A stretch of DNA of 64,000 nt from contig JAPPEU010000057.1 in assembly GCA_028875245.1 (NCBI GenBank), positions 1 to 64,000 of the forward strand, given 5' to 3'. Both the position numbers and the translations under genes were made by a program. How positions within the stretch are numbered: the stretch's first letter is position 1; each line of letters starts with the position of its first letter. Below the pieces are notes generated by a model that ran no database searches, had not been told where the DNA came from, and was given only the letters and a program-made list of their open reading frames with translations. This document shows positions 7,603-14,220 of this stretch, one piece after another. Source of the stretch: Chloroflexota bacterium (GTDB lineage: Bacteria > Chloroflexota > Anaerolineae > Aggregatilineales > Phototrophicaceae).

Positions 7603-8946
7603 ATGAAATCCAAATTATGCCTAACAGTATTGCTCCTTTTTGTCTTTGGACTGCTGGCTGGAGTCGCGGTCGCGCAAGATTCCGTCAGCATCACCGTCCG
7701 CTGTAAAGCCAGCCCGCCGGAAGAAGATTGGCGCTGCAACAATTTCGCCGTCGTTGAAGAGCAAGTCGAAGCCGACCTGGGCATCGACATCGACCTGAAC
7801 CTGATTCAGGACAACGCCGGCTGGGGCGATTACAAGAATGAGTTCGTCCTGGCATCCGAAGCGGGCGAAGCGCCGGACATCATCCTGTCCGGTCATGAGG
7901 ACATTGGCGCCTGGGCGCCGGCCGGCTTCATCATCCCGCTTGATGATGTGATCCCCTTGCACAGTGAATTCGACGATATGGTGCCCTCGCTTTGGGATTC
8001 GCATGGCTACGCCGGCCAGATTTGGGGCATCCCGCAAGATGCCGAAGCGCGCCCCATCTTCTATAGCAAGCTGCTCTTGCGCGACCTGGGCTGGAGCGAA
8101 GAAGACATCGAGTCCCTGCCCGACCGCGTCGTCGCTGGCGAATGGACCTTCGCCGATATGCTGGCGACCGCTGAAGCCGCCATTGACGAAGGCGTCGTCG
8201 ACGCCGGCAACGGCTGGTGGCACCGCCCGAGCAACGGTCCCGACTTCCTCTACTACTATTACGGTCATGGTGGCGAAGTCCTCGATAATGAAGGCAACCT
8301 GGTGGTGGATAGCGACGCCTTGGTCGCGACCTATGAACTGCTGGGCGGCGCGGTGGCCTCCGGCGTGCTGCGTTCCGATGTCATCGGTCTCGACTGGAAC
8401 GAGGTCTGGCATCCGACGGTGGCGCAGGCCGATACCGTGCTCTTTGCCGCCGGCGGCACCTGGAACTGGCCCAACTGGGCGATCAACTACGTGGCTGACA
8501 AGGGCGGCGATGAGTTCCTCTTCGAGAACATCGGCTTGACGCTGATCCCGGCGATGGCCACCGGCAACGCCATCACCCTGACGCATCCGCTGACCTATAT
8601 GATCAGCAGCGGCAGCGAGAATCCGGATGTGGCCCTGGCGCTGATCGCGGCCATCACCACGCCCGAGCACAACAACAAGCACGCCATCGACAGCTTCCAT
8701 CTGGGCATTCTCAACGCGCAGCTGGAATCGGAAGCCTACGCCAACAACCGTCTGCTCAGCAGCGCGCATTACATGCTCGATCACACCACGGCACTGCCCA
8801 ACCATCCGGGCTGGAACGCCTGGTCAAACGCCTATTTCCTGGGCATCCAGGCGGTCGAAACCGGCGAGGCTGACGCGGCCGGCGCGGCCGATATCGCCAT
8901 TGCCCAAATGCAAAACGAGCTGGGCGACGGCATTACGGTACGCTAG
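7603..8946 (+). CDS. ABC transporter extracellular solute-binding protein (carbohydrate type, UgpB-position)
   Basis: This 447-residue protein opens with a clear signal peptide (MKSKLCLTVLLLFVFGLLAG, with cleavage near AVAQ-D). The mature part has family-1 binding-protein features: a two-lobed fold, the DIILSGHEDIGAW segment and a GIPQDAEARPIFYSKLLL hinge. GAGGTAGG precedes the start. It heads an operon of two permeases, an ATPase and a glycerophosphodiesterase, the same gene order as E. coli ugpBAECQ. A glycerophosphodiester or glycerol-3-phosphate ligand is therefore a fair hypothesis, although the protein itself does not prove it. Confidence 0.9.
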   Translation: MKSKLCLTVLLLFVFGLLAGVAVAQDSVSITVRCKASPPEEDWRCNNFAVVEEQVEADLGIDIDLNLIQDNAGWGDYKNEFVLASEAGEAPDIILSGHEDIGAWAPAGFIIPLDDVIPLHSEFDDMVPSLWDSHGYAGQIWGIPQDAEARPIFYSKLLLRDLGWSEEDIESLPDRVVAGEWTFADMLATAEAAIDEGVVDAGNGWWHRPSNGPDFLYYYYGHGGEVLDNEGNLVVDSDALVATYELLGGAVASGVLRSDVIGLDWNEVWHPTVAQADTVLFAAGGTWNWPNWAINYVADKGGDEFLFENIGLTLIPAMATGNAITLTHPLTYMISSGSENPDVALALIAAITTPEHNNKHAIDSFHLGILNAQLESEAYANNRLLSSAHYMLDHTTALPNHPGWNAWSNAYFLGIQAVETGEADAAGAADIAIAQMQNELGDGITVR

Positions 8947-9123: not shown

Positions 9124-10107
9124 ATGTCCCAACCTGGTCCTAAACCCAAATCGTCAGCCACTCTATTACAAAGCCGCCGCAACGCCCTAAGATCCTATCT
9201 GGGCGCTTACGGCTTTATGGCGCCGGCCGGCGTTCTCGTCATCATATTCTTTCTGATTCCCGTCGCTATCGTCCTCTATCTCAGCGTCACCAACCTGGCC
9301 AGCTCCAACTTCACCTCCGACCTGGCCAAGATGGAATATGTCGGTCTCAAGAATTATGAAACGCTGCTCAACGATCAGTTCGCGCGCAAGATCTTTTTCA
9401 ACACGATATTTTATGTGCTGGTGACGCTCTCCATCTTCAACGTGTCACTGGCGCTGATTGTTTCCCTGCTCACGACCCATATTGATCGCAGCGCCGGCTT
9501 TGTATTTCGCGCGCTCTGGATCTTGCCTCGCATCACCTCGCCGGTCGTCTATATCCTGATCTGGAAGCGGATGATGGCGGAAGCGCCCTTTGGCATCCTT
9601 AATCAATTCAACGAATTCCTGGGCCAGCCCACCTTCAATTATGTGTCGACCAATCCCTGGGTCTTTGTGGTTGTGGTGAACGGCTTCATCGGCGTCTCAT
9701 TCGGGATGATCATCTTCACATCCGCAATCGAATCGATCCCCAAAGACTTGCTCAACGCCTCGCTGGTCGATGGCTCGTCGAGGATGCAGCGCATTCGCTA
9801 TGTGATCTTGCCTTTGATACGCTGGCCGCTGCTCTTTGTGGTCACGTATCAGACCTTGTCCCTCTTGACTTCCTTCGTGGAAATCCAATTGCTGACTGAC
9901 GGCGGGCCGGGGCTCTATCGCACCGAGGTCTGGTCGCTGACCGCTTATCATCGCGCCCTGTCCAATTACTTCGGCAACGCGCAATGGGGCTATGGCTCGG
10001 CTTTCGCTGTCCTGTTGGTGATGATCGGCGTCGTGCTCGCGGTGATCTATATGCGCGTCTTCCGCTTTGACGAGTTGGTGGCCGAGCCACGCGTGGAGGC
10101 TTTATGA
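9124..10107 (+). CDS. ABC transporter permease (UgpA/MalF type)
   Basis: This 327-residue MetI-fold permease has about six membrane spans, starting at LGAYGFMAPAGVLVIIFFLI. The EAA cytoplasmic loop that docks on the ATPase is seen as PKDLLNASLVDGSSRMQRIRYVILPLIR. Its length and pattern match the first permease of family-1 sugar importers. It overlaps the next gene by 4 bp (ATGA), so the two are translationally coupled. A family A hairpin lies immediately upstream. Confidence 0.9.
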   Translation: MSQPGPKPKSSATLLQSRRNALRSYLGAYGFMAPAGVLVIIFFLIPVAIVLYLSVTNLASSNFTSDLAKMEYVGLKNYETLLNDQFARKIFFNTIFYVLVTLSIFNVSLALIVSLLTTHIDRSAGFVFRALWILPRITSPVVYILIWKRMMAEAPFGILNQFNEFLGQPTFNYVSTNPWVFVVVVNGFIGVSFGMIIFTSAIESIPKDLLNASLVDGSSRMQRIRYVILPLIRWPLLFVVTYQTLSLLTSFVEIQLLTDGGPGLYRTEVWSLTAYHRALSNYFGNAQWGYGSAFAVLLVMIGVVLAVIYMRVFRFDELVAEPRVEAL

Positions 10108-11681
10108 CCGCGCGCGAGAGCCTGTTCGACTCGGGCAAACTCAAGGTCGAGGAGGCGCCGCCCGCGCTCGCTCGGGATTTGAAAGACGGCCTGCGCCTTG
10201 GCGTCATCGGCATTCTCGTCATGTTGGGCGCCGCCTTTTTCTTAAGCGGCATTGTCGGCCCCCTCTTCGCCCTGGGCAACGTCGAAGAGACGGTGATGGA
10301 TGTCTTGACCCGCCTTGCATTGCTGGCGCTGCCATTCGTCGCCTACATCGCCGCCGCAAGCGTCGCCCGCCGCTATACAGTAAGGGACAGTCCGCGCGCG
10401 CTTGGCTTGGCATTGACCACGACGGTCATACTCTTCGCCGCCATATCGGCCGGGCATTATGTCTTCAACTATGGCGTGTTCGCGCCCCGCCCGTCGTTGC
10501 AGATGACGCTGCGCCAAACCGACGCCGGCATTCGTGTTGAAGCGCTGGTCGCCGGTGGCGCGGCCGATACCGCCGAAATGCAGGTCGGCGATGTCATCAC
10601 GGCGATCCGGCGCGACCGCGTCGACTTGGCCGCCTTCAACAAACGGCTGAGCCAATCAGAGGCGGACGCGCCGCTTCGGCTGCGCTTCATGCGCGGCGAT
10701 GAGGAATTGCAAGAGACAGTCCGTGTCATTCTTGTCTCCGACAAGCAGTTGAGCGTCTTGCTGCCGGGCCTCCTCTTTGGCCTTGCCTTCACGGCAATCA
10801 TCGTATTCCTGCCCGGCCATTGGGCGCCTTATATCGCGCTGGTTGGCTTGCTGTCTCCCTTGCTGGTCGGCTATTTTTGGGTCATCGTCGCCACCTTCTC
10901 ATACCGCACCGAAGGGCTCGTGCCTCTCGACAGCAACGACAATTTCGGCGGCTTCACCTTGAAAAACTGGGAATCTATCTTCGCCGGCAATATCTCGGGC
11001 CTGGAATTCAATATCTGGCCGATTCTGATGACCTCGCTGGCGATTGCGGTTGTCATGACCTTTGTCGTCCTGCTGGTATCGTCGATGGCCGGCTATGCCC
11101 TGTCTCGCATGCACTTTCCCGGGCGCCGTTTCTTCCTCTCCTTCACCTTAATCCTGCACGGCTTCCCGGCGATAACACTCTTGATTCCGATATTCATCGT
11201 GCTGCTGCGGCTGGGCAACATGCCCATCATCGGTGAGGTGATCGGTTTCAACACCATCGGCGGCATCGCCTTGGTCATGGTCGCCTTTCAACTGCCGCTC
11301 GGCGTCTGGCTGATGAAAGGCTTTTTCGACAACATCCCCTGGGATATGGAGCGATCCGCCCTCATCGACGGCGCTTCTCGCTTCCGCACCTATTGGGAGA
11401 TCCTGCTGCCGCAGATCCGCCCCGGCTTGCTGGCGCTGGGCATATTCGCTTTCATCGGCGGCTGGAACGCCTACATCATTCCGGCCACCTACTCAATCGG
11501 CACCGGACTTAGCAACCTGCCGGTGTTCTTGAACGAGCTGATCGACGAAACCGCGCCGGTGGATTGGAATCAGGTGGCGGCGGTCGGTTTATTCCAACTG
11601 ATTCCGATCTTCATATTCTTCATCTTTGCTCAGGAATACCTGCTCAATATCTATGCCGGCGGCACCAAAGGCAGTTCGTAA
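10104..11681 (+). CDS. ABC transporter permease with N-terminal membrane domain and embedded PDZ domain
   Basis: At 525 residues this is almost twice the usual 275-290 of UgpE/MalG permeases. The C-terminal part (about 270-525) is a standard MetI domain, with FTLKNWESIF before the core and an EAA loop at DMERSALIDGASRFRTYWEI. The extra N-terminus has three predicted spans (about 33-53, 70-88, 101-120), then residues 131-210 that look like a bacterial PDZ domain (VEALVAGGAADTAEMQVGDV), then two more spans. With a cytoplasmic N-terminus the PDZ domain would face outward, toward the binding protein. The reading frame is continuous and the base composition matches its neighbours, so this does not look like an artefact. 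Confidence 0.85.
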   Translation: MTARESLFDSGKLKVEEAPPALARDLKDGLRLGVIGILVMLGAAFFLSGIVGPLFALGNVEETVMDVLTRLALLALPFVAYIAAASVARRYTVRDSPRALGLALTTTVILFAAISAGHYVFNYGVFAPRPSLQMTLRQTDAGIRVEALVAGGAADTAEMQVGDVITAIRRDRVDLAAFNKRLSQSEADAPLRLRFMRGDEELQETVRVILVSDKQLSVLLPGLLFGLAFTAIIVFLPGHWAPYIALVGLLSPLLVGYFWVIVATFSYRTEGLVPLDSNDNFGGFTLKNWESIFAGNISGLEFNIWPILMTSLAIAVVMTFVVLLVSSMAGYALSRMHFPGRRFFLSFTLILHGFPAITLLIPIFIVLLRLGNMPIIGEVIGFNTIGGIALVMVAFQLPLGVWLMKGFFDNIPWDMERSALIDGASRFRTYWEILLPQIRPGLLALGIFAFIGGWNAYIIPATYSIGTGLSNLPVFLNELIDETAPVDWNQVAAVGLFQLIPIFIFFIFAQEYLLNIYAGGTKGSS

Positions 11682-11698: not shown

Positions 11699-12781
11699 AT
11701 GGAAATACGCATTGACAACCTGACCAAGAAATTCGGCGATGTGGTCGGCGTTGAGAATCTGACCTTGCACATTGACGATGGCGAATTTGTGGCTTTTTTG
11801 GGGCCGTCGGGCTGTGGCAAGACGACCACGCTGCTGACCCTGGCCGGCATCTACAAGCCGACCGACGGCCTCATTCGCTTCGGCGACCGGGTGGTCAACA
11901 CCGTGCAGCCGAAGGACCGCAATATCGGCATGGTCTTTCAAAGTTATGCCCTCTATCCCCACATGACCATCTTTCAAAACATCGCCTACCCGCTCAAGCT
12001 GAAGAAAGTGCCCAAGAACGAACAGAATGAGCAGGTGCGGCGTGTCGCCAATGTTATGGGCATCGGCGATTTGCTCGATCGCCGCCCCGGCCAGCTTTCC
12101 GGCGGGCAGCAGCAGCGGGTCGCTCTCGGGCGCGCGCTGGTGAAAGAGCCGGATGTGCTGCTCTTTGATGAACCCTTGTCCAATCTGGATGCCCGCCTGC
12201 GCTTGACCATGCGCGGCGAGATCAAACATTTGCAGAAGAACCTGGGCATCACATCCATTTATGTGACGCATGACCAGGTGGAAGCGATGACCATGGCCGA
12301 TCGCATCGCCGTCATGAATCTGGGGCACTTGCAGGCTTTTGACGCGCCCGATGAATTGTACGACCGGCCCAAGACGCGCTTCGTCGCCGGCTTCGTCGGC
12401 AATCCACCGATGAACTTTCTCGATGTGGAAGTCTCCCGTTTGAATGGGCAATTCCTGGCGGAGGCGGATGCGATCCGTCTTCCACTGGGCGCAGAGCGAG
12501 GCGAGCCGCCCGCGGGCCACCCCGGCGCCGTTGTCATGGGCATCCGGCCGGAGGATATCCAAATCGCTGATGATGGCGATGTCCGCGGCGAGATATTCGT
12601 GGTGGAACCGCTCGGCCGCGAAGACCTGATCGATGTGCGCATCGGCTCAAACAGTTTCATCTTGCTCGCCGATACCGAGAAGCAGTACCGAGCCGGGCAG
12701 CCGGTCGCGCTCAAGTTCGACATGTCGCAGGCGCAATTCTTCGATCCGCAGACTGAGCGATCCCTGCTTTGGCGCCAGTAA
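11699..12781 (+). CDS. ABC transporter ATPase (UgpC/MalK type)
   Basis: The track ORF begins at 11564, but the conserved protein starts at ATG 11699 (MEIRIDNLTKKFGDVVG), giving 360 residues. Walker A is GPSGCGKTT (35-43), the Q-loop is Q81 in MVFQSYALYPH, the signature is LSGGQ (133-137), Walker B is VLLFDEP (153-159) and the switch His is 191. Beyond about residue 235 is the TOBE regulatory domain of MalK-like ATPases (VMGIRPEDI). It energises the two permeases just upstream. It may also serve the second sugar importer at 58.6-62 kb, which has no ATPase of its own; this is common for MalK/MsmK-type proteins but is inferred here. Confidence 0.92.
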   Translation: MEIRIDNLTKKFGDVVGVENLTLHIDDGEFVAFLGPSGCGKTTTLLTLAGIYKPTDGLIRFGDRVVNTVQPKDRNIGMVFQSYALYPHMTIFQNIAYPLKLKKVPKNEQNEQVRRVANVMGIGDLLDRRPGQLSGGQQQRVALGRALVKEPDVLLFDEPLSNLDARLRLTMRGEIKHLQKNLGITSIYVTHDQVEAMTMADRIAVMNLGHLQAFDAPDELYDRPKTRFVAGFVGNPPMNFLDVEVSRLNGQFLAEADAIRLPLGAERGEPPAGHPGAVVMGIRPEDIQIADDGDVRGEIFVVEPLGREDLIDVRIGSNSFILLADTEKQYRAGQPVALKFDMSQAQFFDPQTERSLLWRQ

Positions 12782-12789
12782 ACAGCCGC

Positions 12790-14220
12790 ATGTTGGATGC
12801 GCAGCTGGATAGCCTTCGGCGAATCCCGCAAATAGAACCGGCTTGCCAGCTTGCGCTGCGCCATGCGCCTATCATTCGCTTTGACGCGCGCGAGCCTTTC
12901 CTTCCCGCAGCCGTCGGTTATACGGTATTTCGAGGCGACGCGCCATCCGCCTCCTTTCCACGCGACATCAAACTGCGCGCGGGTTGCGCCTTCGCCATCG
13001 AATACGCCATCTGGTGGGACTGGGACATCCAGCACCTCTATGAGTTGGAACATATATGGGTCTATGTCGATCGCGCCGGGGAACTTGTCGACGCTGAAGC
13101 GAGCTGGCATGGACGTTACCATAGAATGCGGGATGACGACGGAAGGCTGCCCACGCAAGACGGCAGATTAGCGCTCCATTCGGAGCCGGGCAAGCACGCT
13201 TTCGCCCCGTCGCCCGAATGGTTGCTGCAACGGAAAGCGAAGACGCTCGCCAGTTGCGGCGTCCGCGCCGGGGCGATGGGCCTGCATGTCACGCCCCTCT
13301 TCAACGGCCTCATCACTGACGACAAGCCGCAAAACCACCGCCTGGTGCACACATACCTGGAGCGGCGCGCTTTCGAGCCCACATACAGCTTTTCCCAGCG
13401 CTTTGATCTTCGCTGCGCCAGATTTGTCCCTTGGCCGCATCTCTTCGCCTGGATTCCGGCGCGCGTTTCAGCCTGGCTGGACGAACTGGAAGCGACCATC
13501 CCGCCAGAAGAAAGACGCGTCCTGCGAATCGCCCATCGCGGCGCATCAGCATACGCGGCGGAAAACTCACTGGCGGCCATAGTCGCGGCGGCTGAACTGG
13601 GCGCCGATATGGTGGAAATCGACATCCGTACGACGGCGGATGATGTGCCCATTGTGATTCATGACGGCAGCCTCATGCGGATGCACGGCGTTGAAGGTGA
13701 TGTTTCGGACTTGACGATGGACGAGCTTTGCCGCTTGACGGCGAGCGGGAGCCCGGTCATCAGCTTTGACGAAGCGGTCGCCCTGTGTCGCGAACTGCAG
13801 TTGGGGCTGTACCTGGATATCAAGCGGCTCACCGTTGCCGCAGCGCGTTCTATGTTCGCGGCGCTGGATGAGCGGCACTATCTGAAGCACACGATCTTTG
13901 GCTCATTCCGCCCCGATTATCTGGCCGATATCAAAGCGGCGCGCCCCGACGCCAGGACCTCCGTTTTATTCGGCGCGGTTCACATCGATCCAGTCAAATT
14001 GGCGGGCGCGGTCAATGCCGATTACGTCCACCCCTGTTGGGAGCATCGCGCCGAGGAGCCGCACAAGCTCTTGACGCCGGCCTGGATTGAAAGCGTGCGA
14101 GCGGCGAACCTGGGCATCGTCTGCTGGCATGAAGAGCGGCCGGCGGAAATCGCGGCGCTGATGGCCCTGGGCGTCGATGCCATCTGTTCCGATAAGCCCG
14201 AACTGCTCTTGCGAGCGTGA
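12790..14220 (+). CDS. Two-domain protein: unknown N-terminal domain plus glycerophosphodiester phosphodiesterase
   Basis: Starting from ATG 12790 (the track uses TTG 12769) the protein has 476 residues. The C-terminal half is a GDPD barrel: catalytic-type residues H249 (IAHRGAS), E258 (AENSL), E276/D278 (VEIDIR) and H291 (VIHDGSL), ending in VDAICSDKPELL. It would cleave glycerophosphodiesters to glycerol-3-phosphate and an alcohol. The N-terminal 235 residues match no family I can name. They are rich in Trp, His and acidic residues (IWWDWDIQHLYELEHIWVYV, then ASWHGRYH and PGKHAFAP), so a second metal site or hydrolase is possible. There is no signal peptide, so it acts in the cytoplasm. The position after the ATPase gene equals that of ugpQ. 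Confidence 0.8.
   Translation: MLDAQLDSLRRIPQIEPACQLALRHAPIIRFDAREPFLPAAVGYTVFRGDAPSASFPRDIKLRAGCAFAIEYAIWWDWDIQHLYELEHIWVYVDRAGELVDAEASWHGRYHRMRDDDGRLPTQDGRLALHSEPGKHAFAPSPEWLLQRKAKTLASCGVRAGAMGLHVTPLFNGLITDDKPQNHRLVHTYLERRAFEPTYSFSQRFDLRCARFVPWPHLFAWIPARVSAWLDELEATIPPEERRVLRIAHRGASAYAAENSLAAIVAAAELGADMVEIDIRTTADDVPIVIHDGSLMRMHGVEGDVSDLTMDELCRLTASGSPVISFDEAVALCRELQLGLYLDIKRLTVAAARSMFAALDERHYLKHTIFGSFRPDYLADIKAARPDARTSVLFGAVHIDPVKLAGAVNADYVHPCWEHRAEEPHKLLTPAWIESVRAANLGIVCWHEERPAEIAALMALGVDAICSDKPELLLRA

Follow-up and report, generated by a model that had tools for sequence, protein, structure and literature searches.

A conserved PDZ domain within the MalG-type permease of an ABC importer from one order of Anaerolineae

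The 64,000-nucleotide stretch of Chloroflexota DNA analysed here (the window) encodes an ABC importer with one unusually long permease, and this raises the question of whether that permease really contains a PDZ domain and, if so, how the domain arose and what it might do at an importer. The gene (10104..11681, + strand) is a single intact, ATG-started frame of 525 residues whose start codon overlaps the stop of the preceding MalF-like gene (ATGA). ORF reading, Pfam and NCBIfam identify it as a permease of the MalG/UgpE type in which three extra membrane helices, the PDZ domain and a fourth extra helix precede a complete MetI permease. A sequence-only reading had described a 525-residue protein with additional membrane spans around a PDZ domain, and the ORF, hydropathy and AlphaFold2 all agree with that description.

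The C-terminal part of the protein (residues 242-525; 10827..11678, +) is an ordinary MalG/MetI core that aligns with PDZ-less orthologues. Pfam BPD_transp_1 matches residues 327-513 with 51.5 bits (E = 1.3e-13; curated cut-off 26.4), and the EAA loop that couples the permease to the ATPase (11328..11426, +) is intact, its EAA-G sequence ERSALIDGASRFRTYWEILLPQIRPG being invariant or nearly so in the alignments. The best NCBIfam models for the MetI half are MalG, GlcU and UgpE, all far under their equivalog cut-offs; specifically, the maltose importer model MalG scores 97.6 bits against a cut-off of 261, and the glycerol-3-phosphate importer model UgpE 66 bits against 297. The gene encodes a MalG-type subunit of a type I ABC importer of the UgpBAEC/MalEFGK class. 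With the permease core and the coupling loop both preserved, the importer can be expected to function normally, its core cycle unchanged.

Several lines of evidence identify the PDZ domain (residues ~128-211; 10485..10736, +). Pfam PDZ_2 matches residues 134-207 with 22.3 bits (E = 1.7e-4). Taken singly, this sequence falls below the cut-off of 27, yet the assignment is safe because of matches across the family: PDZ_2 was found in 29 of 29 aligned members at E <= 0.01 (best E 1.4e-8), and five distant orthologues pass the cut-off with 28.5-34.5 bits. A profile of the N-terminal part retrieved the PDZ domains of DegQ/DegP from the PDB (E = 2.6e-15), and the best single-sequence match is the PDZ2 of DegP/DegQ. 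AlphaFold2 modelled residues 16-240 with a mean pLDDT of 86 (~82-90 across the PDZ domain), placing helices at residues 22-57 (10167..10274, +), 62-91 (annotated as residues 64-91; 10293..10376, +) and 96-120 (10389..10463, +), a PDZ fold at 129-211, and a further helix at 216-235 (10749..10808, +). Foldseek matched this model to the HtrA-type PDZ domains of HhoA, DegS and DegQ with probability 1.00 (rmsd 1.2 for HhoA). The limits of 131-210 proposed from the letters are correct to within a few residues, and the possibility, raised at the same time, that a confident model might lack the fold did not come true. In the full-length AlphaFold2 model the N-terminal part is again confident and the MetI core has low confidence, probably because only 29 similar sequences were supplied, which makes for a shallow alignment.

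We take R129-P-S-L-Q-M134 (10488..10505, +) to occupy the position of the carboxylate-binding loop of the domain. Column counts in the alignment show that S131, L132 and M134 are nearly invariant and that position 133 is Q or E rather than the usual glycine. The canonical X-phi-G-phi pattern is absent from this loop, with S-L-[QE]-M in its place, a pattern that fits a conserved but non-classical PDZ surface.

Hydropathy and AlphaFold2 place the four extra helices before six core helices. Positive charge is found in the N-terminal tail and the loop at 86-98, and acidic residues mark the loop at 52-63 and the core's external loops; the loop at 236-243 is neutral and short. MalG has an N-inside layout; adding four helices to it and considering these loop charges, the N-terminus of the first extra helix is predicted to lie inside and the PDZ domain on the outer face of the membrane. 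The same placement had been suggested by simple topology, and the distribution of charge (positive inside, acidic outside) supports it.

The neighbouring genes, all on the + strand, complete a recognizable importer. Upstream are a solute-binding protein with a signal-peptidase-I type signal, no lipobox and a C-terminal tail ...GDGITVR (7603..8946; Pfam and reading of both termini) and a 327-residue partner permease of the MalF/UgpA type without a MalF-P2-like domain (9124..10107; Pfam, NCBIfam and hydropathy). Downstream, Pfam and NCBIfam identify a UgpC/MalK-like ATPase with OB/TOBE domains (11699..12781), which is followed by a glycerophosphodiester phosphodiesterase fused to an N-terminal domain, with no signal peptide seen (12769..14220; Pfam and sequence). 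The extra domain of the latter product comprises ~250 residues and has no Pfam match. Compared with E. coli UgpBAEC and MalEFGK2, the core, EAA loop, partner permease, MalK/UgpC-like ATPase and MalE-like binding protein are the same; the difference is the added N-terminal extension of ~240 residues, organized as three helices, PDZ and one helix.

Wherever a PDZ locus has enough flanking sequence to judge, the genes run binding protein, MalF, PDZ-MalG, ATPase, so the expectation that the long permease stays beside a UgpC/MalK-like ATPase across genomes held in the loci examined. Plain-form operons elsewhere in the class have the same four genes in the same order, with the glycerophosphodiesterase in some genomes. 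In PDZ-form operons this enzyme is often the next gene, which makes glycerol-3-phosphate or a glycerophosphodiester at least as likely a substrate as a sugar. Judging from the gene neighbours, the cargo is most likely glycerol-3-phosphate, a glycerophosphodiester or an oligosaccharide. Sponge-associated Anaerolineae have many ABC transporters, including ones for glycerol-3-phosphate (PMC6306507). In several genomes, some with the PDZ form and others with the plain form, this glycerophosphodiesterase adjoins or lies near the importer.

The extension is present in one open frame in 27 of 33 genomes of the same genus, and the system is altogether missing from the other six. Of the 154 genomes of the order, 51 encode the permease, 49 of them with the extension; in one exception (G768) the gene is interrupted by a contig end, and the other (G040) truly lacks the extension. 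None of 37 sampled permease-bearing genomes from other orders has it, and in a phylum-wide sample of 400 genomes it occurs in the window's own genome only. The extension turned up at 28 loci in a scan of GTDB species genomes, every one of them labelled as Chloroflexota, Anaerolineae or a lower-ranking group within these. Many of their isolate names resemble those of sponge metagenome bins, and the bearers are presumably uncultured and mostly sponge-dwelling. Within the genus the median dN/dS is 0.125 for the PDZ domain, 0.17 for the first three extra helices and 0.04 for the core, values that are rough given synonymous sites near saturation. On these substitution patterns the PDZ domain is under purifying selection and kept by selection.

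The unusual length of the permease is the only feature in favour of an assembly error, chimera or gene-fusion artefact. Such an origin was raised when the gene was first noticed, in the form of an N-terminal half joined by misassembly, but the same ORF occurs in dozens of separately assembled genomes and is under purifying selection throughout. We therefore regard an artefact as refuted, with a negligible residual probability.

Operons in other Anaerolineae orders encode MalG proteins of ~275-315 residues with 48-63% core identity to the protein described here; they are otherwise the same operon, without the extension and with a lipoprotein as binding protein. In a tree of MalF and MalK, genes that do not themselves carry the trait, all 23 PDZ-form operons fall into one clade with a support of 100, the plain operon of the same-order genome G040 is its sister, and the remaining plain forms lie outside. 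As the PDZ-less G040 splits off between the PDZ clade and the rest of the plain forms, the simplest interpretation is a single gain. One change explains the tree, and the most likely history is one gain within a single Anaerolineae order, with the direction of change inferred from a midpoint root (the branch to a paralogue used as root was too long). Among the matches to the extension we found no stand-alone protein with three helices, PDZ and a helix that could represent its donor; the weaker matches are other PDZ proteins. The G040 orthologue itself (L188:3460-4566, -) has a plain N-terminus; a different insertion, which includes hydrophobic stretches, separates its core helices 1 and 2.

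The PDZ and plain forms also differ in their binding proteins, which suggested that the domain might replace a lost lipid anchor. The binding proteins of plain-form operons are lipoproteins in 13 of 13 cases with complete N-termini, mostly with a long linker, whereas those of PDZ-form operons have a signal-peptidase-I signal and none has a lipobox. Although strong at first, the case for a specific substitute was weakened by controls, for which SBP_bac_1 proteins were sampled (loci L063-L122 and L198-L227). In G000 (the window's genome), G038, G306 and G269, a lipobox is likewise missing from nearly all the sampled binding proteins that belong to other importers (two lipobox flags look false, the cysteine lying outside the signal or past the cleavage site). 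In G040, which has no PDZ domain, the lipobox is missing from 9 of 9 readable binding proteins; in G153 and G110, from other orders, it is present in 16 of 16 readable signals. The loss of the anchor thus apparently extends over the whole order and either predates the PDZ domain or is independent of it, so that its correlation with the domain represents one lineage event rather than independent evidence. The genes for Lgt and LspA are still present in the PDZ-form genomes tested. We consider a causal link between the two changes improbable. The loss in these Chloroflexota may possibly be tied to the cell envelope, and the PDZ domain may still exploit it.

The domain could in principle recognize the operon's own binding protein by its tail, as the sequence-only reading suggested in proposing docking through a free C-terminus. 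A classical PDZ ligand is a free C-terminus whose last residue is hydrophobic. In the 23 PDZ-form operons the last residue of the binding protein is R in 20, K in two and Q in one, and the tail is nearly the same in plain-form operons. This part of the proposal is not supported, and we rejected the tail as a classical ligand. The MalF tail, ...VEAL, would suit a PDZ domain better; it is cytoplasmic by topology and of the same kind in plain forms.

What, then, might a PDZ domain predicted to face outwards do at this permease? During transport in E. coli, the binding protein makes contacts with MalF-P2 and with MalG (PMC3150292). A second folded domain at the same entrance would most plausibly serve docking. 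We suggest that the PDZ domain may be an extracellular docking module next to the permease mouth, which would hold a soluble extracytoplasmic partner and thereby make more loaded binding protein available locally or modulate its delivery, in a manner comparable to that of the MalF-P2 domain in the maltose importer. The likeliest partner would be the operon's own binding protein, which in this order has no lipid anchor; the contact would then be made by a surface or a strand and not by a C-terminal tail of the classical kind. We put docking or delivery control at the permease at somewhat less than an even chance, and hold more tentatively still that the permease has a PDZ receptor of its own that recruits or gates delivery by the unanchored binding protein (or another tail-bearing partner). 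Besides the C-terminus of the binding protein, a poor classical ligand that is alike whether or not the operon has the PDZ domain, and the carboxylate loop without its usual glycine, several observations count against docking. Other sampled ABC systems also have unanchored binding proteins, yet this is the sole PDZ permease in the window's genome (no other was found among its 72 MetI matches, judged by similarity to this PDZ), which indicates that a tether is not generally needed. G040 likewise has unanchored binding proteins and no PDZ domain, and six genomes of the genus do without the whole system.

Alternatively, the PDZ domain may bind another extracytoplasmic protein, such as a protease, an envelope or wall scaffold or a peptide signal, and localize or regulate the importer independently of the binding protein. 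It is best matched by PDZ domains from HtrA/Deg proteases, domains that bind a large number of extracytoplasmic tails; the near-invariance of S131, L132 and M134 and the unsuitable tail of the binding protein point the same way. However, the operon offers no candidate partner, as the glycerophosphodiesterase, a desaturase and an oxidoreductase look cytoplasmic or unrelated, and we consider this reading rather unlikely. We judge it slightly less likely again that the domain and its helices have a structural role or mediate self-association, forming importer dimers or clusters or stabilizing MalF-MalG packing, and take no peptide ligand. The replacement of the loop glycine by Q/E would be in keeping with such a role, as would the top single-sequence match, given that the PDZ2 of DegP/DegQ serves mainly cage assembly, and four extra helices would suit packing. 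Against it, a plain MalG suffices in other orders, and the loop is conserved rather than drifting. Docking by the PDZ domain at the permease remains our preferred interpretation.

MalF-P2 offers an analogy only, as the two domains are unrelated. Both are folded extracytoplasmic domains that follow an odd number of helices on a permease subunit, but P2, which is not a PDZ domain, belongs to MalF and sits inside the core, between the first helices. The domain described here shares fold and sequence family with the PDZ domains of DegQ, DegP, DegS and HhoA; in contrast to those proteins, there is no protease, the domain is attached to importer helices and the loop glycine is Q/E. We found nothing relevant on PDZ domains with ABC permeases or importers in the open-access literature, and a survey of microbial PDZ domains does not mention transport, permease or ABC (PMC6411480). 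Within that literature a PDZ-bearing importer permease appears to be undescribed. We consider it a real, conserved and probably single-origin domain addition to a well-known importer, whose function we infer. If correct, a PDZ receptor on the permease would represent a type of control point new to type I importers. As orthologous importers exist with and without the domain, its effect on recruitment of the binding protein could be tested by deletion or grafting. The finding also points to an apparent disappearance of lipid anchors from binding proteins across this order of Chloroflexota.

The window's genome contains very many sugar-type importers, with 72 MetI-like and 67 SBP_bac_1 matches in 4.2 Mb, and its longer permeases hold other inserts. 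A MalG-type permease of 532 residues on contig C7 (L158:1008-2603, -) has an insert of ~270 residues after the first helix, weakly similar to cadherin and bacterial Ig domains. On contig C2 (L157:9-1994, +), an apparent MalF-MalG fusion is encoded in one frame of 662 residues.
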